A stretch of DNA of 64,000 nt from the NCBI GenBank assembly GCA_922989275.2, contig OV277864.1, positions 50,839,550 through 50,903,549 on the forward strand, written 5' to 3'. The notes under the pieces were generated by a model that saw only the letters and a program-made list of their open reading frames with translations, had not been told where the DNA came from and made no database searches. Position numbers and translations under genes: made by a program. The stretch is from Gari tellinella (taxonomy: Eukaryota; Mollusca; Bivalvia; Cardiida; Psammobiidae). Positions 5,729-46,880 of the stretch are shown in pieces. Within the stretch, counting starts at the first letter, position 1, and each line of letters starts with the position of its first letter.

Positions 5729-5756
5729 GGGGGGGGGGGGGGGGGGGGGGGGGGGG
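5729..5756. repeat. Poly-G tract of 28 bases
   Basis: Unbroken run of G between 'caccaatcta' and 'tattcaaaaaatc'. It can form a G-quadruplex on one strand. The length may be uncertain because such runs are hard to sequence. Confidence 0.95.
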
Positions 5757-19568: not shown

Positions 19569-20017
19569 TATGTCGATTAGGAGTGTCGCAGTGCCGTAAA
19601 ACCTGACTTATCATATACGTATCACCCAAAGGAGTAGATATTACTGATCAGCGTAGATGAGATGCTGCATTTGTTTCATTTATCTCATAAGGGCACTGTT
19701 TGCTATTTCATATGAAATGATCTGCTGCAGATTGCAGATTTGTAACATGTATTCAGCTCAGAGACCAACTGTATACCCCAGCAGTCACCTGGACATCCAG
19801 GTACTATAACCGTCCAAGTCCATTTCCATCACATCTCCACCTCCTGCCCCTCCCCCCTCCAGTTCATTTTCCCCCTCTTGTTTATTTTATGGTGATGTCA
19901 TCTTCATATCCCACCACTGCCACCAAATTTAGAATGTTAATATCATGTACCCTATGAGATAAATGAGACAAATTGCAGCATCAGGATTAATGAACACATC
20001 ATGTCTTATACTTTCAG
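19569..20017. other. Intron 5' of exon 1, no repeat recognised
   Basis: Includes a C-rich segment (19800-19880). An ATG at 19747 opens a short frame that reaches CAG|gtacta, but its phase does not fit exon 1 and it lacks Walker A residues. The upstream ABCG exon is not here. Confidence 0.4.
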
Positions 20018-20187
20018 GCTCTGGAAAGACCACTCTTCTCAATGTGATTTCGGGCCGCCAGAAGCATGACTCAGGTACTATCACATGCAATGGTTCCCCT
20101 TTCACTAAGCGCCTGCGCCGGAGGTTAGCATTTGTGCAACAGCAAGATTTGTTCTTCTCCCAATTGACACTGAGAGAGACTTTACAG
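20018..20187 (+). CDS. ABCG exon 1 in window: Walker A and Q-loop
   Basis: The exon follows the acceptor 'ctttcag' and ends at CAG|gtacag. It enters in phase 1 and leaves in phase 0. It encodes GSGKTTLLNVISGRQ, the last part of Walker A (the GPS of GPSGSGKTT must come from the previous exon), then a beta-rich stretch, and the Q-loop region AFVQQQDLFFSQLTLRETLQ. The K and T of GKT bind ATP phosphates; the Q of VQQQD contacts the TM domain in this family. All key residues are present. About 450 bp upstream are free of recognised MITEs, unlike the other exons. I could not find the upstream exon ending in an ILGPS-like sequence, so the start codon is not in view. Confidence 0.96.
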
Positions 20188-20292
20188 GTACAGTATTCTC
20201 CTGGTCAGAATTTTGTATAATTATGTACAGTGTCTTGTAATAATTGAAAGCACACATATGTACAGTCATTCTTGAATAAAGTGGACATCAAT

Positions 20293-20547
20293 TTAACCCA
20301 TAACCCCATAGCTCGTTTGAATAAGTTTTAAAGAAAGATAATCCCTTAAAGCAGTTTGAAATTAAAGCAGAAAGCGCCATAAGGCGCATTCTGCTTAACT
20401 TTCAACCTGGTTTAAGCTATTATCTGTTGGGATATAGAAACTATTTCTTATGATACATAATCATGACTGTATAAAACGGAACTATTTTGTTCAGTGGAGG
20501 AATGAATTAAAGGCTTATAAAGGCATATTTATGTGGTAATGGGTTAA
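20293..20547 (+). mobile_element. Family A MITE
   Basis: TTAACCCATAACCCCATAG to 'atgtggtaatgggttaa'; hairpin around GCGCCATAAGGCGC. Confidence 0.9.
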
Positions 20548-20669
20548 GTATTGTAGTGATGTGCTTTCTAAAGACATGTGACTGTCAATGTAGGATAGAA
20601 AAAATGAAGAAAGGTACTATACAAGCTTTCTGCATTTTTTTTGTATCCTGCATTAAGGAACAACCTGTT

Positions 20670-20920
20670 TTAACTCTTTGAACCCTAGTCCCGCATATAG
20701 GCGTGCTTTTCAAACAGTGTACATGTGAATAGTACACATGTCCTATACAAACAGTGAAGACCCAGATCAGAGGGCTCCGAAAGGAGCCCTCTGATCAGGG
20801 TCTTCACTGTTTGTCACAATGCCAAACATTGACAAAAACAACCCTTTAAAGTCAGAAATGGACTAGACTTAGATGGAAACTGGAATTGTCCATTTAAAGT
20901 TTCAGGGAGGAAAGAGTTAA
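20670..20920 (-). mobile_element. Family D MITE, TTAA ends
   Basis: Family D: ends TTAACYCTTTCCTCCCTGAA and TAGGGTTCAAAGRGTTAA, about 250 bp. The central palindrome CAAACAGTGAAGACCCAGAT..GGGCTCCGAAAGGAGCCC.. lies here at 20748-20814. Confidence 0.92.
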
Positions 20921-21112
20921 AGACTGATTCCATGAATATTCTATTCAAACAATACTGACTGCAACTTTGTACTGGCAAACAATGTGAGATTCTACTTGGG
21001 AATAAAATGAAGTGCTTTAAATAGTGTTTTACTTTCAAGCTTTTAAATATACGAAAAAGAAAATTAATGCAATTAAAAGAAATACGGGCAGTCTTCATTG
21101 CAGATGACTGCT

Positions 21113-21356
21113 TAACCCAATTACTATTACCAATTACTATAAATACAGTTTATATGTCTTTCATTAATGAATTGCTCCATTGAAGCAAATTGTTCCACTT
21201 TATAAAATCAGAAATATGCTCTATATGAAATATTTTCGGAAAATAAATAAATGACTTAAATATTATCTATATCCTAGCAAATGGCAACTTACAGCAGGCT
21301 GAAAATAAAGCAGAATGTGCTTTAAGGCACATTCTGCTTTACTTTCAATCTGCCTT
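21113..21356 (-). mobile_element. Family A MITE, right end replaced
   Basis: Starts TTAACCCAATTACTATTA, hairpin at 21291-21355, then joins directly to a family D element. Confidence 0.8.
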
Positions 21357-21590
21357 AATCCTTTCCTTCCTAAAACTTCAAATGTACAATTCAAGTGTCC
21401 AGTATATTCTAGTCCATCTTTGACTATTTAGGGTTATTTTTTGTCAATGTATTGAAATTACAAACTATGCAGACCCTGATCAGAGGGGTCCTCAAGGGAC
21501 CCTTTGATCAGGGGCATCACTGTTTGCATAAGACAAGCTTACTCCTCCCAGACATTCTGCTTGCAAAGAAGGTGTATATGTGTGACTTAA
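21357..21590 (+). mobile_element. Family D MITE
   Basis: TTAATCCTTTCCTTCCTAAA; centre 'gggtcctcaagggacccttt' (21484-21510); the right end runs to the TTAA that begins the next D. Confidence 0.85.
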
Positions 21591-21837
21591 CTCTTTCCTC
21601 CCTAAAACATTAAATGAACAATTCCTATTTCCATTTTGGTATAGTCCATTTCTGACTTTTAAGGGTTGTTTTTGTCAATGTTTGGCATTGTGACAAACAG
21701 TGAAGAACCTGATCAGAGGGCTCCTTTCGGAGCCCTCTGATCAGGGTCTTCACTGTTTGCATAGGACAAGTGCACTATTCACATGTACACTGTTGGAAAA
21801 GCACGCCTATATGCGGGACTAGGGTTCAAAGAGTTAA
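21587..21837 (+). mobile_element. Family D MITE sharing TTAA with the previous copy
   Basis: TTAACTCTTTCCTCCCTAAA to TAGGGTTCAAAGAGTTAA; palindrome 21700-21760 near perfect. Same orientation as its neighbour. Confidence 0.92.
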
Positions 21838-21849
21838 GGGCTCAAACAA

Positions 21850-22078
21850 TTAACTCATTATCCCATAGACTGTTTCTAGTTTTCAAGACAGGTGATAACT
21901 TAAAGCAGGTTGAAAGTAAAGCAGAATACTTTCAGCCTGCTTAAAGCTACCATTTGCTAGAAGAAATAAAATAATTATTGTGGTATATATTCATAACTGT
22001 ATAAAATAGATCTATTTTCTTCAGTGTGAAAGTAAATTATAGAGGTATAATAGGTGTATTTATGGGGTAGTGGGTTAA
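21850..22078 (+). mobile_element. Family A MITE, central hairpin deleted
   Basis: TTAACTCATTATCCCATAG to TATGGGGTAGTGGGTTAA. 'gtaaagcagaat|actttcagcc' shows loss of the hairpin tip. Confidence 0.88.
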
Positions 22079-22127
22079 ATGGTTACCTATCTTGAAAACT
22101 AGAAATAAGCTACGGGGTAAAGGATTA
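22079..22127 (-). mobile_element. Family A end fragment
   Basis: 'ttacctatcttgaaaactag' to 'acggggtaaaggattaa'. Confidence 0.75.
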
Positions 22128-22199
22128 ATGCTTGATAAAAAATACAACAGGAGCATTCTACATTATTATCTACATGTATTACAGTATATGCATTTACTA

Positions 22200-22446
22200 T
22201 TAATCCTGTAGCCTGTTTCTAGTTTTGAAGACAGGGGAGCACTTAAAGCAAGTTGAAAGTAAAGCAGAATGTGCCTTAAGGAACATTCTGCTTTACTTTC
22301 AGCCTCCGTTAAGCTGTCATCTGCTAGGATATAACAAACATTTCATTGTGTACATGTTTATGACTGTATAAATTGGAACTATTTTCTTCTGTGGAGGAAT
22401 AAATTTAAGTCTGTTAGAAGGAGCTTCTATTGGGAGAAAGGGTTAA
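22200..22446 (+). mobile_element. Family A MITE
   Basis: TTAATCCTGTAGCCTGTTTC to 'gggagaaagggttaa'; hairpin at 22250-22315. Confidence 0.88.
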
Positions 22447-22496
22447 AAAACAACAACAAAAAAACCTCGGTCTTTACAATGCACTTCTTGCAATTT

Positions 22497-22721
22497 AATA
22501 ACTCTTTGCACGCTAGCGGTGGATATATCTGCCACAGTGATTGTCTTTGCAAACAGTTTGGATCCAGATGAGACGCCGCATAATGCGGCGTCTCATCAGG
22601 ATCCAAACTGTTTGACACTCTGACCATGTTTTGAAAAGAAATTTAGAAAAATCTATTTTAGAACAATAGCAGACGACAAATGTTGCAGACGAAAAAAATT
22701 ACCAAGCATGCAAAGAGTTAA
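22497..22721 (+). mobile_element. Family E MITE
   Basis: 'aataactctttgcacgctag' to AGCATGCAAAGAGTTAA; perfect palindrome CAAACAGTTTGGATCCAGAT..CGCATAATGCGGCG.. at 22551-22613. Confidence 0.92.
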
Positions 22722-22847
22722 GAGACCATAACTCTGTATTACAGTTTGTTTATGTTATCAAGATTTACTAATCAAGTTATAGATATTTCCCAAAAGACTT
22801 GTAATGCAATATCAAATGTTAACATTTCATTGTTATTTGTGTTTTAG

Positions 22848-22953
22848 TTTACTGCGTATCTTCGGATGCCTGAGAACTTCAATGTACAGGAGAAGGAAGA
22901 CGCTGTGGACACAATCATAGAGGCTCTCGGTCTTCAGAAATGTATGAATACTG
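22848..22953 (+). CDS. ABCG exon 2: NBD helical region; its end is amplified in tandem
   Basis: Acceptor 'gttttag', first codons TTT ACT GCG TAT (FTAYLRMPENF), joining in frame after RETLQ of exon 1. It encodes the alpha-helical part of the NBD: EKEDAVDTIIEALGLQKC, the usual ABCG helix before the signature motif. It ends AAT ACT G|gtaag in phase 1, and the next exon supplies TG ATA GGA, giving NTVIGD. The last 43 bp of the exon and the first 14 bp of the intron form the first unit of a 57-bp minisatellite, so 12 further in-frame donors follow. I chose the first donor because it gives normal ABCG spacing to ISGGE; use of later donors would insert 19 residues per unit. Confidence 0.92.
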
Positions 22954-23798
22954 GTAAGATTACTCACTCAATCATAGAGGCTCTCGGTCTTCAGAAATGT
23001 ATAAATACTGGTAAGATTACTCACACAATCATTGAGGCTCTTGGTCTTCAGAAATGTATAAATACTGGTAAGATTACTTACACAATCATAGAGGCTCTCG
23101 GTCTTCAGAAATGTATAAATACTGGTAAGACTTCTCACACAATCATAGAGGCTCTTGGTCTTCAGAAATGTATAAATACTGGTAAGATTACTCACACAAT
23201 CATACAGGCTCTTGGTCTTCAGAAATGTATAAATACTGGTAAGATTACTCACACAATCATAGAGGCTCTTGGTCTTCAGAAATGTATAAATACTGGTAAG
23301 ATTACTCACACAATCATAGAGGCTCTTGGTCTTCAGAAATGTATAAATACTGGTAAGATTACTCACACAATCATAGAGGCTCTTGGTCTTCAGAAATGTA
23401 TAAATACTGGTAAGATTACTCACACAATCATAGAGGCTCTTGGTCTTCAGAAATGTATAAATACTGGTAAGATTACTCACACAATCATAGAGGCTCTCGG
23501 TCTTCAGAAATGTATAAATACTGGTAAGACTTCTCACACAATCATAGAGGCTCTTGGTCTTCAGAAATGTATAAATACTGGTAAGATTACTCACACAATC
23601 ATAGAGGCTCTTGGTCTTCAGAAATGTATAAATACTGGTAAGATTACTCACACATTCATAGAGGCTCTCGGTCTTTAGAAATGTATAAATACTTGTAAGA
23701 TTTCTCACACAATCATAGAGGCACTTGGTCTTTAGAAATATATTAATTCTGGTAAGATTACTCACCAAATCATAGAAGCTCTTGGTCTTCAGAATAGA
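22911..23798 (+). repeat. 57-bp minisatellite made of exon end plus splice donor (about 15.6 units)
   Basis: Tandem units of exactly 57 bp, each holding the last 43 bp of exon 2 and 14 bp of intron with a GTAAG donor. Donors recur at 22954 + 57k for k = 0 to 14; a partial 16th unit ends near 23798. Because 57 is a multiple of 3 and no unit has a stop until a CTT TAG at 23673-23678, the first 13 donors (k = 0-12) lie in one open frame that adds GKITHTIIEALGLQKCINT per unit. The CTCGG / cttctcac variant pair at k = 2-3 recurs at k = 9-10, which suggests a 7-unit (399-bp) block duplication. The last two and a half units have diverged and carry stops. The long open frames on both strands here are a by-product of the period, not separate genes. 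Confidence 0.97.
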
Positions 23799-23889
23799 GG
23801 ATTCTGTTCAGTTTGCTTAGCTGTATTTCACATTTTCTTTCAAAATTGTTTACATTGATTAAGATAGGTGATTGCTTATGGTCAATTTG

Positions 23890-24123
23890 TAGTTTCAAAG
23901 ACTAATGACCACTTAAAGCAGGTTAAAAGTAAAGCAGAATGCACCTTAAGGTGTGTTCTGCTTTACTTTAAACCTGCTTTCAGCTACTATCTGTTAGAAT
24001 AAAGTGAATATTTGTCATGATACATACATGTATTCATGACTGTCTAAATTGGAACTATATTAAACAAAGTATGAATAAATTAAATGCATAAATATGTGTA
24101 TCAATAGAGCAATGGGGTAATAA
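23890..24123 (+). mobile_element. Family A MITE, left end decayed
   Basis: Hairpin around GCACCTTAAGGTGTG (23912-23985); right end 'caatggggtaataa'. Confidence 0.8.
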
Positions 24124-24314
24124 CAGGGCTCCAGATAAGGGGTGTATTTAAAACATTAAAATCCTTATTTCTGCATTAAACCCTATGGTGTCACTACTCA
24201 TTAGAATCGTCCCGAAGAGACGATTCTAATTAGTAGTAACACTATAGAATTTGGTGCTGATAAAAGTGAGAAAATGGGATTTGTTCAGTTTACTCTCTCT
24301 TATTTGGACCCCAG
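24124..24314 (+). mobile_element. Family B MITE 28 bp before exon 3
   Basis: CAGGGCTCCAGATAAGGGG to CTTATTTGGACCCCAG. TAATAA / TAATTA flank it (diverged 6-bp copies). Confidence 0.88.
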
Positions 24315-24342
24315 TAATTACACGTGTATTTGTTTATTACAG

Positions 24343-24443
24343 TGATAGGAGATATATTTGTGAAAGGAATATCGGGTGGTGAGAAGAAGCGTGCCAGCAT
24401 AGCCTGTGAGCTGCTGGTTGATCCAGATATACTACTCTTAGAT
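24343..24443 (+). CDS. ABCG exon 3: signature motif and Walker B
   Basis: Acceptor 'tgtttattacag'; enters in phase 1 and leaves in phase 0 at CTC TTA GAT|gtgagt. It encodes [20 protein letters not shown], then [21 protein letters not shown] is the ABC signature (LSGGQ-like, with the ABCG-type E-K-K-R tail) and ILLLD is the Walker B strand, with the following E supplied by exon 4. A family B MITE ends 28 bp upstream and a family C MITE begins 29 bp downstream, so the splice signals are hemmed in by elements. Confidence 0.97.
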
Positions 24444-24472
24444 GTGAGTCAACAACAGCTGCCCGTCCAGTA

Positions 24473-24643
24473 CAGTAAAACCTCTCAATTACCACCATCA
24501 AATTGTAATAATTATATGGAGGATAATCAATTTCTTTGGATTGATATGAAAAATATATCACAGCTTTAAGCTGTCACCTGTCTTTTATACAGCCAATTAG
24601 TCTTTGTTTTAGTGGTGGTAAGATATATAGAGAGGTTTTACTG
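24473..24643. mobile_element. Family C MITE 29 bp after exon 3, hairpin shortened
   Basis: CAGTAAAACCTCTCAATTAC to TATAGAGAGGTTTTACTG. The middle of the usual centre is missing. Confidence 0.88.
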
Positions 24644-24710
24644 TTGCTTTTACACTGGAGAACACTATTATTTCCCAATAGACTTATAAACGCTAAAATT
24701 CCTATATCCA

Positions 24711-24944
24711 TTAACTCATTGAGCCCTAGTGACGCATATATGCGTCTTTTACGAAATGTGTCTCATACAAATCTTGAAGTCCCTGATCAGAGGGCTCCTG
24801 CAGGAGCCCTCTGATCAGGGTCTTCACTGTTTGTCATTTTGTAAAATATAATAAGAAAAAACCCTTAATTTATAGTCGAAAATGGACCAGCCTTTATTGC
24901 AAACTGGAGTTGTCCATTGGAAGTTTAAGGGGATAATGAGTTAA
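24711..24944 (-). mobile_element. Family D MITE
   Basis: TTAACTCATTGAGCCCTAG to 'ggggataatgagttaa'; hairpin GGGCTCCTGCAGGAGCCC. Confidence 0.9.
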
Positions 24945-25009
24945 ATGGCAAACAAAATAATGTAAGATGTAAGTCAACAGCAACAGCTGTTGCATAATAC
25001 CTATTAGCC

Positions 25010-25205
25010 TAGGGCTCCAGATAACAGGGAGTTATCTGAACAAATCTTAACTTTTTCTCGCTCATATCAGCACCAAATCCTGTGGTGTTACTACTCATTA
25101 GAATCGTTTCCATGAGACGATTCTAATGAGTAGTGACACCATAGGGTTTAATGTAGAAATGGAGATTTAAGTGTTTGAAATATACTCCCCTTATTTGAAG
25201 CTCAG
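25010..25205 (-). mobile_element. Family B MITE
   Basis: 'tagggctccagataacaggg' to 'ttatttgaagctcag'; hairpin intact. Confidence 0.85.
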
Positions 25206-25640
25206 ATCTAGTACAGTGGAGCACATGTTATTCTTTTCTGAATACAGTCAGGACTCGATACAACGTCACAGTTCGTTCGCAACAAAAATGTTATACAGTA
25301 CATTTGTATATGTATATTGAATCTCATATATAGATCTATATAGCTTTGTTCAGGTTCGTTCCAATGGAATTCGTGTTGGTAAGTGAGAATTCCGATGTCG
25401 TCGTATCCTGTCCTGAGACTCCTGGCTGTAAACAAATGTGTGCTAAAATGCCTATGTCCATTTCAAACAGTTAAAATTGTACCCAGATCAGACATCACAT
25501 GACCCACTTTTTAAACCCAGTGTCTGCATTGGCTCAAAACTGTTAACTAGCCAGATTAAAATGATTATTGTCAATATTTCAAAAAGCAGTTATTTTCTAC
25601 ATTTGATAGCATTGTTAAGTTTCATTACCCCATAAATACA
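25206..25640. other. Mostly featureless
   Basis: 'cagtcaggactcgata' near 25248 hints at a decayed TA element; 25465-25545 is a decayed CAAACAG-type hairpin. Nothing else. Confidence 0.35.
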
Positions 25641-25644
25641 CCTT

Positions 25645-25895
25645 TTAACCCTTTCCCACATAGACCTTTTCTAGTATTGAATAAAGGTGTCTACTTAAAG
25701 CGAGTTGAAAGTAAAGCAGAATGCGCCTTAAGCGCATTCTGCTTTACTTTCAGCCTGCTTTAAGCTACCATCTGCTAGAATATAGAAAATATTTTGTATG
25801 ATACATATTTATGACTGTATAAATTGGAACTATTTTCTTCAGTGAAGGAATAAACTTAATGCGCTAAAAGGCGCTTCTATTGGGGAGAGGGTTAA
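25645..25895 (+). mobile_element. Family A MITE
   Basis: TTAACCCTTTCCCACATAG to 'tggggagagggttaa'; hairpin around GCGCCTTAAGCGC. Confidence 0.9.
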
Positions 25896-26114
25896 GCCTT
25901 AGATAATTCCTCCACTAAAGAAGATGATTCCACTTTATACATTCATGATTACGTACAGTGAGAAATATTTTCTTCAATCATCAAGATGGTAGCTTAAAGC
26001 AAGCTGAAAGCAAAGCAAAATGCGCCTTAAGGCGCATTCTGCTTTAATGTCAACCTGCTTTCAAGTAGTCTCATACTTTCAATACTAGAAACAGACTATG
26101 GAGTAAAGGGTTAA
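25892..26114 (-). mobile_element. Family A MITE sharing TTAA with the previous copy
   Basis: Starts on the TTAA of its neighbour, 5' part shortened; hairpin 25990-26060; ends 'actatggagtaaagggttaa'. Confidence 0.85.
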
Positions 26115-26154: not shown

Positions 26155-27650
26155 GTAACCCTTAGCATGCTAGCATTGAAACCATGGTAACCATTGCAAA
26201 CAGTTTTGATCCTGATGAGACGCCGCGTGACGCCGCGTCTCATCAGGATAAAAACTTTTTGACGCCCTGACCCTGTTTTGAAAACAATATTTTTAGCTCA
26301 CCTGAGCCGAAGGCTCAGGATGAGCTATTGTGATACCATTCCGTCCGTCGTCCATCGTCCGGTGTCTGGCGTCCGTCGTCCGGTGTCCGTCGTCCGTCGT
26401 CCGTAGTACGTTCACATTTTCAAACAACATCTCCTCAGAAACCACTGACCCAATTGCAACCAAACTTTGTCAGAAGCATCAGTGGCAAGGGGGAACGAAA
26501 TCTTGTTCAAAGTTTTTGGCTAGAGTTATTCCCCTTGCTGTGGGACCAGATTTTCTAACATGACCCTATAGACAACTTTTAATGCATAAGAAAATCTTAA
26601 AAAATCTTCTTCTCAAAAACCCAAAGGCCCAGACCTTTGATATTTGGTATGTATCATAACCTAATGATCTTCTACCAAGATTGTTCAAAGTTTGACCCTG
26701 GGGCCAAAAATGGCCCCGCCCTGGGGCTTATCAGTTTTTCTTAGGAAAACCTTTAAAAATCTTCTCCTCAGAAACTGTATGGCCTAGATCATTCATATTT
26801 GACATGTAGCTTTTCCATATGGTCCTCTACCAAGATTTTTTCAAATTATGACCCCTGGGTCAAAATTGGCCGTGCCCCAGGGCTTATCAGTTTTACATAG
26901 ACTTATATAGGAAAACCTTTTAAAATCTTTTTCTCTCAAACTGTATGGCCTAGATCTTTAATATTTGACATACAGCTTTGCCTTGTGGTCCTCTACCAAG
27001 ATTGTTCAAATTATGACCCCCGGGTCAGAAATTGCCACGCCCTCGGGCCTATTAGTTTTTCATAGGAAAACCTTTAAAAATCTTCTTCTCTGAAACCGTA
27101 AGGCCAAGATCATTTATATTTGACATGTAGCTTTGCCCTATGGTACTCTACCAAGATTGTTCAAATTATGACCCCTTGATCAAATTTGGCCCCGCCCCGG
27201 GGCTTATCAGTTTTACATAGACTTATATAGGAAAACCTTTAAAAATCTTCTACTCTGAAACTGTAAGGCCCAGATTCTTAATATTTGACATATAGCTTTG
27301 CTTTGTGGTTCTCTACCAAGATTGTTCCAATTATGACCCCCGGGGCAAAAATTGGACCCACCCAGTTTTTATAGGAAAACCTTTAAAAATCTTCTTCTCT
27401 TAAACCGTAAGGCCCAGATCATTAATATCTGACATGTAGCTTCGCATTGTGGTCCTCTACCAAGATCAAATTATGGGACCTGGGTCATAGCTATATCAAA
27501 ATGTTGTCTTGCCCAGTCAGATTCTATGGTACAGTGTCCTCAGGTGAGCGAAATGTGACCCTCTGGGTCTCTTGTTAAATTCTATTTTTAGAACAGCAGC
27601 AGACGACAAATGTTGCAGACAAAAAAAAATACCCAGCATGCAAAGAGTTA
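26155..27650 (+). mobile_element. Family E MITE split by a long family N insertion
   Basis: Left part to 26290 with palindrome CAAACAGTTTTGATCCTGAT..GCGTGACGCCGCG..; right part from 27577 'attctatttttagaacagca' to 'agcatgcaaagagtta'. The two parts join into a normal E element. Confidence 0.88.
26291..27576 (+). mobile_element. CACCTGAG long repeat (family N), copy 2
   Basis: 'ttttagctcacctgagccga' to 'cctcaggtgagcgaaatg' and 'gggtctcttgtt'. A GTCCGTCGTCCG-type stretch near the start, then about five tandem modules of roughly 150-170 bp, each with 'accaagattgttcaaattat' and 'aggaaaacctttaaaaatct'. No transposase seen; nothing explains how it moves. Confidence 0.85.
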
Positions 27651-30758: not shown

Positions 30759-30920
30759 GAACCCACCTCAGGTCTAGATTCCAGCACTGCGTATGACATC
30801 ATGGTGTCTCTGCAGAAATACTGTAGCGTGTTTAACAAAACCATCGTCATCACAATACACCAGCCCTCCAGTAGGATCTACCACATGTTTGATAAACTCC
30901 TTGTGTTAGTAGAAGGCAAG
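30759..30920 (+). CDS. ABCG exon 4: catalytic E, D-loop and H-loop
   Basis: Acceptor 'gatatttcag', donor GGC AAG|gtaagt, phase 0 at both ends, 54 codons. It starts EPTSGLDSSTAYDIM: the catalytic glutamate after Walker B and the D-loop SGLD. It continues to KTIVITIHQPSSRIYHMF, with the H-loop histidine, and ends KLLVLVEGK. All NBD catalytic residues are therefore intact across exons 1-4. A family E MITE ends only 19 bp upstream, so the branch point must lie in or at the edge of that element. The final 46 bp of the exon plus 14 bp of intron are repeated downstream at 31262-31321. Confidence 0.97.
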
Positions 30921-30934
30921 GTAAGTCTAGTCAG

Positions 30935-31080: not shown

Positions 31081-31261
31081 CAGATAAGAGGAGTAAACTG
31101 AACAAATAAAAAAAAATCTGCAATCATTTTTTAGCACCAAACCCTATGATGTTACTTCTCATTTGAATCGTCTCTAAGAGACTATTCTTATGAGTAGTGA
31201 CACCATAGGGTTTAATCCAGAAATGAAGATTTTAGTTTTTGAAATACTTTCCACATTTTGA
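31081..31261 (-). mobile_element. Family B MITE remnant
   Basis: 'cagataagaggagtaaactg' to 'ctttccacattttgagatc'; its left tip (CAGGGTCC at 30932) is separated by the foldback. Confidence 0.8.
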
Positions 31262-31321
31262 GATCTACCACATGTTTGATAAACTCCTTGTGTTAGTAGA
31301 AGGTAAGGTAAGTCTAGTCAG
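31262..31321 (+). pseudogene. Duplicated end of ABCG exon 4 with intact donor
   Basis: A 60-bp copy of 30875-30934 (last 46 bp of exon 4 plus GTAAGT and 8 more intron bases) with one visible difference (GGC to GGT, synonymous). It has no acceptor of its own directly upstream. The following family B remnant is duplicated too, so the event looks like a tandem duplication of 'exon tail + donor + MITE', with a foldback element later inserted in the first copy. It is a decoy donor inside the intron. Confidence 0.9.
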
Positions 31322-31848: not shown

Positions 31849-32112
31849 TTAACCCATTACCCCATAGCTTATTTCTAGTTTTGAAGATATGTCACCACTT
31901 AAAACAGGTTGAAAGTAAAGCAGAATGTGCCTTAAGGCACATTCTGCTTTACTTTCAGCCTGTTTTAAGCTACCATCTTATAGAATATAGAAAATATTTC
32001 TTATGATACATATTAATGATTGTATTAATGATTGTATAGACTAGAACTACTTCCTTTAGTGGAGGAGTAAATCAAAGGCGTAAAAAGGCGTATTTATGGG
32101 GTAAAGGGTTAA
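31849..32112 (+). mobile_element. Family A MITE (unit 1)
   Basis: TTAACCCATTACCCCATAGC to 'tatggggtaaagggttaa'; perfect hairpin. A short internal duplication 'gattgtattaat'. Confidence 0.93.
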
Positions 32113-32142
32113 TGCTCCCTGTAGGAAGGTGAGGAAGGAAAT

Positions 32143-32346
32143 AAAGTAAAACCCGTCTTTTATGACCGTTAAAGTTTGTGAATTATATGGTGTTCAGCTT
32201 GGTGTCTGCTTAAAGCAAGGTGAGAGTAAAACAGAAAGCTCCCTAAGGAGCTTTCTGTTTTACTGTCACCTTGTTTAAAGCAGTCACCTGTTTTAAATTT
32301 CTGATAATTTACACAATTTAGTGGTCATAATAGAGAGGTTTTACTG
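32143..32346. mobile_element. Family C MITE (unit 1)
   Basis: 'aagtaaaacccgtcttttat' to TAGAGAGGTTTTACTG; complete hairpin AAAGCTCCCTAAGGAGCTTT. Confidence 0.9.
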
Positions 32347-32364
32347 TAGTATGTGTCAATTACA

Positions 32365-32580
32365 AACAGTGTACCTAGAAAGAGTACACTTGTCTTATGC
32401 AAACAGTGTAGAATCAGATCAGACAACGTTGACTCTGATCAAAGCAAAAGGAGCTCACTGATCAGGGCATGCACTGTTTGTTATTTTGCAATACATGTAT
32501 ATTGTAAAAGTCAACCCTAGAATAAAGTAAATAATTTAATTAGAAGCTAAAATTTTCCATTTGATGTTTCAGGAAATAAT
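32365..32580 (-). mobile_element. Family D-like remnant (unit 1)
   Basis: 'aacagtgtacctagaaagag' to 'gatgtttcaggaaataat'; one hairpin arm altered. This is the empty version of the site filled at 33431. Confidence 0.7.
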
Positions 32581-32856: not shown

Positions 32857-33108
32857 TTAACCCATTACCCCATAGCTTATTTCTAGTTTTGAAGATATGT
32901 CACCACTTAAAACAGGTTGAAAGTAAAGCAGAATGTGCCTTATGGCACATTCTGCTTTACTTTCAGCCTGTTTTAAGCTACCATCTGCTAGAATATAGAA
33001 AATATTTCTTATGATACATATTAATGATTGTATAAACTAGAACTACTTTCTTTAGTGGAGGAGTAAATCAAAGGCGTAAAAAGGCGTATTTATGGGGTAA
33101 TGGGTTAA
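32857..33108 (+). mobile_element. Family A MITE (unit 2)
   Basis: Same as unit 1, with ends TTAACCCATTACCCCATAGC and TATGGGGTAATGGGTTAA. Confidence 0.93.
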
Positions 33109-33139
33109 TGCTCCCTGTAGGAAGGTGAGGAAGGAAATA

Positions 33140-33329
33140 CAGTAAAACCCGTCTTTTATGACCGTTAAAGTTTGTGAATTATAAGGTGTTCAGGTTGGTG
33201 TCTGCTTAAAGCAAGGTGACAGTAAAACAGAAAGCTCCTTTACTGTCACCTTGTTTAAAGCAGTCACCTGTTTTAAATTTCTGATAATTTACACAATTTA
33301 GTGGTCATAATAGAGAGGTTTTACTGTAG
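33140..33329. mobile_element. Family C MITE (unit 2), hairpin tip lost
   Basis: 'acagaaagctcctttactgt' shows loss of the distal hairpin relative to unit 1. Confidence 0.9.
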
Positions 33330-33430
33330 TTTGTGTCAATTACAAACAGTGTACCTAGAAAGAGTACACTTGTCGTATGCAAACAGTGTAGAATCAGATC
33401 AGACAGCGTTAACTCTGATCAAAGCAAAAG

Positions 33431-40221: not shown

Positions 40222-40360
40222 TTACATGCATGTTTGCTATTGAGGGGAACAATAATGTTTGTTCCTTTCAGTGTAAACAGTTGATTAAAACACATACAAT
40301 ACTATTAGTAGTGTATGTACAAGTATTATAGCAGTGATCCCTTAAGGCTAGACTATTGAT

Positions 40361-41627
40361 TTTTAGCTCACCTGAGCCAAAGGCTCAAGGTGAGCTATTG
40401 GGATGGCCCTGTGTCCGGCGTCGTCCGTCGTGCGTTGTGCGTCGTCCGTCGTCGTTAACAATTGCTTCAAATGACATCTCCTCCTATACCGCTTGACAGA
40501 ATTCGACCAAACTTTACAGAAATGTTCCTTGGGTCAAGCTCTTTCAAATTTGTTCAAAGAATTAAAAACAATGCAGAACTCTGGTTACCATGGCAACCAA
40601 AGTGAAAAAATAAGCAAATCTTAAAAAATCTTCTTGTCAAAAACTGCAAGGGCCAGAGCTTAGATATTTGGCACATAGCATCATCTACAGGTCCTCTATC
40701 AAGTTTATCTAAATTATGCCCCTGGGGTCAAAATTGGCCCCGCCCCGGCCCGGGGTCACAGTTTTACATAGAGTTATATAGTGAAATTTTCAAACGTCTT
40801 CTTCTCTGAAACCAATGTGGCCAGAGCTTTGATATTTGGCATGGTAACACTTCTAGATGTCCTTTACCAAAATTGTTCAAATGGTTGTGGTCGGTTGCAT
40901 ACCTAGGTCACAGGAGATAAAAATAGATTTTTTCAATGAAAACTTAAAAAATCTTCTTGTCTGAAACTACAAGGGCCAGAGCTTAGATATTTGGCACATA
41001 GAATCGCCTACAGGTCATCTATCAAGTTTGTTCAAATTATGCCCCTGGGGTCAAAATTGGCCCCCGCCCCGGGGGTCACGGTTTTACATAGAGTTCTATA
41101 GTGAAATTTTCATACGTCTTCTTTTCTAAAACTAATATGGCCAGTGCTTTGATATTTGGCATAGTGACACTTCTAGATATCTTATACCAAAATTGTACAA
41201 ATGGTTTTGGTCCGTTGCATAACTAGGTCACAGGAGCTAAAAATAGATTTTTTACAATGAAAACTTAAAAAAGCTTCTTGTCTAAAACTACAAGGGCCAG
41301 AGCTTAGATATATGACACATATCATCGCCTACAGGTCCTCTATTAAGTTTCTTCAAATTATGCCCCTAGGGTCAAAATTGGCCCCGCCCCGGGGGTCACT
41401 GTTTTACATAGAGTTATATAAAGAAAATTTCAAACATCTTCTTCTCTGACTCTAATAAGGCCAGAGCTTTTATATTCTGTATGGTGACACTTTTAAATAT
41501 ACTTTACATATTTTATTCAAATTGTTCCGGTCTGTTGCATATCTAGGTCAGTCCTGGACATAAATCAATATCTCCATTTTTCCAATTATTCTCAGGTGAG
41601 CGAATATGCCCCATGGGGCTCTTGTTT
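40361..41627 (+). mobile_element. CACCTGAG long repeat (family N), copy 3
   Basis: 'ttttagctcacctgagccaa' to 'tctcaggtgagcgaatatgc' and 'ggggctcttgttt'. Three modules of about 300 bp with 'acaagggccagagcttagat' and 'agagctttgatatttggcat'. Closest to copy 4 at 45582. Confidence 0.88.
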
Positions 41628-41649
41628 CATTAGTAATTTAGTATTCTAT

Positions 41650-45503: not shown

Positions 45504-46880
45504 CAATAAAAACTAGATAATTCAAACTTGCTTTGGTTCGAACATACACATATCTCAAAGGTTAAAACCTGGCATAGCCACTTTTTAGCTCACCTGAGCC
45601 AAAGGCTCAAGGTGAGCTATTGGGATGGCCCTGTGTCCGGCGTCCGGCGTCGTGCGTTGTGCGTCGTCCGGCGTCGTTAACAATTGCTTCAAATGACATC
45701 TCCTCCTATACCCCTTGACAGAATTCAACCAAACTTTACAGAAATGTTCCTTGGGTCAAGCTCTTTCAAATTTGTTCAAAGAATTAAAAACAATGCAGAA
45801 CTCTGGTTGCCATGGCAACCATTTTGTGAAAAAATAAGGAAATCTTAAAAAATCTTCTTGTCAAAAACTGCAAGGGCCAGAGCTTAGATATTTGGTACAT
45901 AGCATCATCTACAGGTCCTCTATCAAATTTGTTCAAATTATGCCCCTGGGGTCAAAATTGGCCCCGCCCCGGGGGTCACAGTTTTACATAGAGTTATAAA
46001 GTGAAATTTTCAAACGTCTTCTTCTCTGAAACCAATGTGGCCAGAGCTTTGATATTTGGCATGGTGACACTTCTAGATGTCCTTTACCAAAATTGTTCAA
46101 ATGGTTGTGGTCGGTTGCATAACTAGGTCACAGGAGCTAAAAATAGATTTTTTCAATGAAAACTTAAAAAATCTTCTTGTCTGAAACTACAAGGACCAGA
46201 GCTTAGATATTTGGCACATAGAATTGCCTACAGGTTCTCTATCAAGTTTGTTCAAATTATGCCCCTGGGGTCAAAATTGGCCCGCCCCGGGGATCACGGT
46301 TTTACAAAGATTTATATAGAGAATTTTTCATACGTCTTCTTCTCTGAAACTAATATGGCCAGAGCTTTGATATTTGGCATAGTGACACTTCTAGATGTCC
46401 TTTACCAAAATTGTACAAATGGTTCTGGTCCGTTGCATAACTAGGTCACAGGAGCTAAAAATAGATTTTGTACAATGAAAACTTAAAAAATCTTCTTGTC
46501 TAAAACTACAAGGGCCAGAGCTTAGATATATGGCACATATCATCGCCTACAGGTCCTCTCTTAAGTTTGTTCAAATTATGCCCCTAGGGTAAAAATTGGC
46601 CCACCCCGGGGGTCACTGTATTATATAGAGTTATATAGAGAAAATTTCAAACGTCTTCTTCTCTGACTCTAATATGGCCAGAGCTTTTATATTCTGTATG
46701 GTGACACTTTTAAATATACTTTACATATTTTGTTCAAATTGTTCTGGTCTGTTGCATATCTAGGTCAGTCCTGGACATAAATCAATATCTCCATTTTTCC
46801 AATTATTCTCAGGTGAGCGAATATGCCCCATGGGGCTCTTGTTTACTTTGAAATATGAGTATGTTCGATTTAAGCGGGAT
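45504..46880. mobile_element. Family H MITE split by family N
   Basis: Left part 'gataattcaaacttgctttg' to 'aaaacctggcatagccac'; right part from 46845 'actttgaaatatgagtatgt' to 'gatttaagcgggatt'. The insertion hit the centre of H. Confidence 0.75.
45582..46844 (+). mobile_element. CACCTGAG long repeat (family N), copy 4
   Basis: 'tttttagctcacctgagcc' to 'ttctcaggtgagcgaatatg' and 'ggctcttgttt'. Same module order as copy 3, so the two belong to one subfamily. Confidence 0.88.

Follow-up and report, generated by a model that had tools for sequence, protein, structure and literature searches.

A minisatellite that repeats the end of an exon together with its 5' splice donor lies in the nucleotide-binding domain (NBD) region of an ABCG transporter gene of the bivalve Gari tellinella. 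It occupies positions 22911..23798 on the forward strand of the window, the 64,000-nucleotide stretch of DNA analyzed here, and comprises 15 full 57-bp units and, after them, a partial one of about 33 bp. As read from the assembled sequence, the unit structure is regular, the donors are near-identical, 13 of them stand in frame, and the units have been homogenized recently. The array is probably a young minisatellite seeded at the exon-intron border, in which the first donor dominates and the later ones play a minor part. The normal protein is probably left intact, and small amounts of longer versions might be made.

Host gene

Homology and translation identify the host as a bivalve-like ABCG half-transporter gene on the forward strand. 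Most of the gene lies inside the window, and its 3' end runs off it. Four exons with consensus splice sites were placed between 20018 and 30920 with the help of tblastn. The first (20018..20187; splice sites, translation) enters in phase 1 and spans Walker A (GSGKTT) to the Q-loop region, with 78% tblastn identity to the Mercenaria protein P0001. The array exon (22848..22953; translation, homologues) ends in ...LGLQKCMNT in phase 1, and its last 43 bp serve as the exonic portion of unit 1. The next exon (24343..24443; splice sites, homologues) carries the signature motif (...LLLD), and that at 30759..30920 (splice sites, homologues) holds the D-loop and H-loop (EPTSGLDSST...IHQPSS).

The product of these exons matches Pfam PF00005 (9.4e-27), and its Walker A, signature, and H-loop follow one another as in ABCG proteins. 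Among PDB entries, CDR1-type pleiotropic pumps and ABCG25 (1e-49) rank highest, with ABCG8 and ABCG2 (6.6e-40) next. The top-scoring protein among the matches listed is from Mercenaria mercenaria, with 60% identity over about half of the query, and Mactra and Mya come next among the named rows. Further exons were located by tblastn near 44.65k, 55.4k, 57.9k, 59.2k, and 63.2k. The last four match C-terminal parts of PF01061-bearing ABCG homologues, which places one transmembrane domain after the NBD, as in ABCG half-transporters.

The array exon had been labeled exon 2, which is too low a number. The exon at 20018..20187 begins in phase 1 inside Walker A, so at least one coding exon must lie upstream. 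Together with the 43 residues that precede the matching part in two of the three homologues shown (P0002 and P0012), this makes the array exon at least the third coding exon.

Structure of the array

Tandem Repeats Finder (TRF) reports a period of 57, 15.5 copies between 22909 and 23794, 95% matches, 0% indels, and a score of 1590. Alignment unit by unit gives 15 full units spanning 22911-23765, and a 16th whose similarity is lost beyond about 33 bp. Each unit joins 43 bp of exon end to 14 bp of intron start, the period is exactly 57 bp, and GTAAG is retained in all 15; both readings thus confirm the originally claimed structure. If translated, the peptide that spans a unit border would be INTGKITHTIIEALGLQK. 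Such regularity is not attributable to chance. The 43-bp exon part has no copy beyond the 15 units on either strand of the window, with up to 12 substitutions allowed.

Seven of the 15 units match the consensus exactly. Units 4 and 11 do not differ from one another and have three variants in common, which suggests copying of a block containing both. Units 14 and 15 (23652..23765) have diverged, and each contains an in-frame TAG (at 23676 and 23733, respectively). Seven identical units, the likeness of units 4 and 11, and the divergence of units 14-16 form the usual picture of a young array with old edges. Because the units are homogenized, copy-number variation between individuals is likely, as judged from one assembly. 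It is highly improbable that the array is an assembly artefact or a local mis-expansion of a shorter one. Perfect repeats are easily mis-assembled and the array is read from a single assembly, but private variants are scattered through the units, the ends have diverged, and long reads easily exceed 890 bp; uncertainty extends at most to the exact count of identical middle units.

RNA folding of 22880-23140 gave no structure signal (z=0.77), and an Rfam search of 20000-26000 returned zero matches. Palindromic, MITE-like fold-backs lie near the array at 22242-22313, 22550-22614, 23912-23983, and 24164-24266; they make up four of the six inverted pairs listed, with arms of 32-48 bp that are 79-97% complementary. 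Elsewhere in the window, two 1.3-kb segments (40360-41644 and 45582-46862) are 95% identical, each with a tandem array of about 320 bp, and a related array lies at 26586-27466. A direct duplication of about 600 bp (31849-32450 and 32857-33430, 93% identical) and a run of 28 G (5729-5756) were also observed.

Donors and reading frame

The donor GT dinucleotides lie at 22954+57k, for k=0-14. Donor 1 (22954..22955) reads CTG/GTAAGA, donors 2-13 (k=1-12; 23011..23639) have the same 9-mer and are in frame, and the array as a whole has this 9-mer in 14 of 15 units, with CTT/GTAAGA in unit 14. Predicted U1 pairing is -8.0 kcal/mol for the 14 and -4.3 for the weaker donor 14, against -9.4, -5.5, and -10.6 for three other donors of the gene. 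Scored with an approximate weight matrix, the 14 donors reach the 98.9th percentile of forward-strand GT sites in the window and exceed two of three further donors scored for comparison.

The exon frame is open from 22848 to the TAG at 23676 in unit 14, and the next stop is the TAG at 23733 in unit 15. Hence, 13 donors precede the first stop, and each later one would add 19 residues. When carried on into the exons that follow, translation from donors 1, 2, and 13 stays in frame. The original prediction of 13 donors in one frame, with 19 residues gained per unit and no frameshift, was borne out by this translation, and the competing donors that it proposed proved to be nearly identical.

The open frame itself is weak evidence of coding. 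No stop arises in the exon frame, since 57 is divisible by 3 and the 14-bp intron part is stop-free by chance; in a simulation, the chance of no stop in the junction codons was about 0.81 for a 57-bp unit starting in coding sequence. The minus-strand frame through the array is likewise open (279 aa), for the same reason of a stop-free unit whose length is a multiple of three. The open frame alone is thus no sign of coding. Taken as proof of coding, it was rejected in view of this chance, the neutral-like variants, and the stops in units 14-15.

Donor giving the normal protein

When donor 1 is spliced to 24343, the product aligns with plant ABCG25 (1e-49) without gaps. Over a 17-residue span across the junction, 119 of 120 homologues have equal length (best 120 of 6640). 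With 13 more homologues from the search with the donor-13 product, the count is 131 of 133 top-listed proteins. The exceptions, P0094 (+2) and P0130 (+1), have their extra residues after a conserved IG, downstream of the junction, and none of the 133 carries an insertion at the junction itself. From the ABCG25 alignment and these lengths, together with its score, donor 1 is the one that gives a normal-length ABCG protein, and no insertion at this site is seen in the relatives examined.

In an AlphaFold2 model of a Mercenaria relative, the junction lies in a loop between helix 74-87, which is followed by a short turn, and the signature helix 108-120. Later donors would therefore add 19n residues to a loop just before the signature motif. 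We take this loop to be near the contact with the membrane domains in ABC transporters; long insertions are hence likely to be harmful.

Dominance of donor 1 is probable, and some points speak against it. The donors are strong, as their 98.9th percentile with the approximate matrix indicates for 14 of 15. In test constructs with identical competing donors, the intron-proximal one often wins, and this preference would predict the opposite of donor-1 dominance.

Unit variation and protein-level evidence

Selection on the encoded peptide should appear as an excess of synonymous variants. Without selection, 24.6% synonymous, 72.8% non-synonymous, and 2.6% stop variants are expected. Units 1-13 hold eight distinct variants, two synonymous and six non-synonymous, and thus show no such excess, on few variants. 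All 15 units together hold 15 variants (four synonymous, ten non-synonymous, and one stop). By position, units 1-13 have five variants in 43 exonic columns and three in 14 intronic ones, and all 15 units have 12 and three. The exon part of units 1-13 is therefore less variable per column than the intron part, again with few variants. Unit variation fits neutrality, and weak constraint is compatible with so few variants. Two features count against the favored explanation of a tolerated array: its neutrality rests on few variants, and exon columns vary less in units 1-13, in a sample too small to judge by.

A protein search with the array open reading frame (ORF) gave 0 of 7998 candidates at E<=0.001. 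Searches with the donor-1 and donor-13 products, each scoring about 8000 candidates of 0.55-1.75 times the query length, found no array-bearing protein among the matches listed (best 120 of 6640 and of 5242, respectively). Best identities were about 60%, with one row at 62% over 20% of the query.

Single-sequence AlphaFold2 models of the array ORF show two short helices per unit. The best of five has pLDDT 80.7 and pTM 0.73, and pLDDT falls to 48.8 in the poorest. Foldseek found nothing in the PDB at E<=0.001; the best result was a weak likeness to armadillo-type solenoids (E 3.1e-3, TM about 0.3). Such structure predictions are known to perform poorly on perfect repeats. A perfect repeat modeled without an alignment is a poor test, and the model is thus given little weight.

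These results bear on the possibility of substantial splicing from several donors. The gene would then make a protein ladder in which 1-12 added 19-residue units stand just before the signature motif, perhaps as a small helical solenoid. The shared 9-mer of donors 1-13, the frame that stays open through all of them, and the two helices per unit in the best model are consistent with such a ladder, as is IFI6, where two downstream units act as donors beside the first according to the accessible part of the literature. On the other side stand the absence of a junction insertion in the 133 top-listed homologues, the lack of an array-bearing protein among the matches listed in three protein searches, the absence of detectable purifying selection on the few unit variants, the models of low pLDDT, and the Foldseek result. 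Such use of several donors is quite unlikely. Still more doubtful is its fuller form, in which 13 equal donors would yield 0 to 12 helical units of 19 residues before the signature motif and copy number would add length variation between individuals. The view that extended, length-variable proteins matter is thus not supported: donor 1 gives the normal length, the few variants show no sign of protein-level selection, and the insertion would fall in a loop.

Acceptor-like sites and gene output

Every unit also contains an acceptor-like CTYGGTCTTYAG (22926..23792), with TCTTYAG behind a partly pyrimidine-rich stretch and the AG before 22938+57k. With an approximate weight matrix, the sites score 0.54 to 2.32 in units 1-13 and -1.36, -3.28, and 0.01 in units 14, 15, and 16; four tested acceptors of the gene score -0.36, -0.29, -0.03, and 3.8. 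By frame arithmetic, such a site joined to the donor of its own or a later unit would include 16+57n nt, always a frameshift, with putative micro-exons of 16 nt as the smallest case.

The array might accordingly lower the output of the gene. Use of donors 14-15, of the unit acceptors, or skipping of a neighboring exon would produce decayed or damaged messages, and copy number would tune expression. In-frame TAGs ahead of donors 14 and 15 are consistent with this, as are acceptor-like sites in units 1-13 that score within the range of the gene's own. However, the matrices are approximate, and the sites of units 14, 15, and 16 score low. The shortest internal GT-AG span is 41 nt, shorter than most animal introns. 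Human ABCA7 bears on both sides: in the accessible text, expression is lower and skipping of the following exon, exon 19, is more frequent where the array is longer, but array length has no effect on nonsense-mediated decay (NMD) (PMC5954066). We regard lowered output as an unlikely role of the array.

A second copy in the same gene

A further exon end has been copied with its donor in this gene. The segment 31262..31321 on the forward strand (46 bp of exon and 14 bp of intron) derives from 30875-30934 with 59 of 60 positions identical, and sits 387 bp downstream of its source, the end of exon 30759-30920. The copied donor, AAG/GTAAGT at 31308, equals the original, and read-through to it meets stops. 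The gene thus seems to tolerate a downstream donor that goes unused, if the gene is functional; as an argument for the favored explanation, this presupposes a functional gene.

Nine exons, each with flanks of 30 bp upstream and 40 bp downstream, were compared by BLAST (E<=1e-3). Two of the nine, namely 30759-30920 and the array exon, have their end and donor copied downstream; acceptor ends had no copy among them, and the remaining matches involve intronic flank only. The equal 14-bp intron parts of the two duplications may be a coincidence (n=2, noticed post hoc). The segment 31262-31321 is flanked on either side by a copy of a repeat that is frequent in the window, and these two copies are 84% alike. 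The repeat at 31090-31261 gives 41 BLAST alignments in the window, with itself and its own inverted arms counted, and one copy, at 24144-24295, lies in the array's own intron.

Proposed origin

The explanation that we favor begins with tandem duplication of a 57-bp piece across the exon-intron border of the bivalve-like ABCG gene. Slippage or unequal exchange would then have expanded it into a young minisatellite where the intron begins. The spliceosome would mainly use donor 1 and thereby give a normal NBD. Later donors would be used at a low level to yield forms with 19n added residues, probably poor transporters, and transcripts spliced from donors 14-15 would contain early stops. Individuals probably differ in copy number. 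The array would be tolerated, not selected.

Comparison with known systems

The kind of structure is rare but already known, as far as the accessible parts of the sources go, from IFI6, ABCA7, and border repeats of human paralogues (PMC2812944). The original statement that ABC transporters offer no standard example is contradicted by intron 18 of human ABCA7 (PMC5954066); IFI6 is an older case outside the family. As in those two genes, a 5' splice site recurs in every unit and the authentic donor is included, with GTAAG in 15 of 15 units here.

IFI6 (6-16, G1P3) has a minisatellite with multiple splice donors (Turri et al. 1995). In the accessible part of a citing paper, the 130-aa form predominates and two downstream units are also used. 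The likeness to Gari is a minisatellite that supplies several donors at an exon end. An IFI6 unit is 12 bp and adds four residues. Unlike the Gari unit, it resembles a donor without a long exon segment, as far as the available account goes, and the gene is not an ABC transporter. In human segmental-duplication genes, variable internal tandem repeats at exon-intron boundaries change splicing (PMC2812944, in its accessible part). These repeats share the border position with the Gari array, but, as described there, concern how novel introns formed among recent human paralogues and not a run of identical donors.

Among ABCG relatives, the structures of ABCG25, ABCG2, ABCG1, and ABCG5/8 and the bivalve ABCG22/14-like proteins match the Walker A, signature, and H-loop exons of the Gari gene. 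They differ from it at the junction, where the 133 top-listed homologues carry no insertion.

What is new here is the long in-frame unit, the acceptor-like site in each unit, and the second copy of exon end plus donor at 31262-31321. The accessible literature that was searched shows no other long unit with 43 bp of exon that keeps the frame across 13 near-identical donors. With 15 near-identical donors spaced 57 nt apart in a single natural transcript, 13 in frame, the array constitutes a ready-made experiment on 5' splice site choice, in which donor position is nearly the sole variable, a few unit variants aside. The second case within this gene is a hint that duplications of this kind may occur more often than is assumed.

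ABCA7 offers the nearest natural test. In the accessible text, its VNTR includes the exon-18 donor as the first GT and ranges from about 12 to about 427 units (PMC5954066). As in Gari, a tandem array at an intron start in the NBD region of an ABC transporter includes the exon's own GT donor, in ABCA7 as its first two bases, and many donor copies. Its unit is 25 bp, starts at the GT, contains no exon sequence, and shifts the frame when retained, unlike the Gari unit of 57 bp with 43 bp of exon, in frame for 13 donors. The first ABCA7 donor is canonical; the donor one unit downstream is also used, retaining one unit at about 2 +/- 1%, as the order of the sentence is read, and unchanged with array length (PMC5954066, accessible text). 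Retention transcripts are subject to NMD there, so the 2% may understate donor use. Taken together, the Gari array, ABCA7, and IFI6 suggest that exon-intron borders can seed minisatellites in very different animals.
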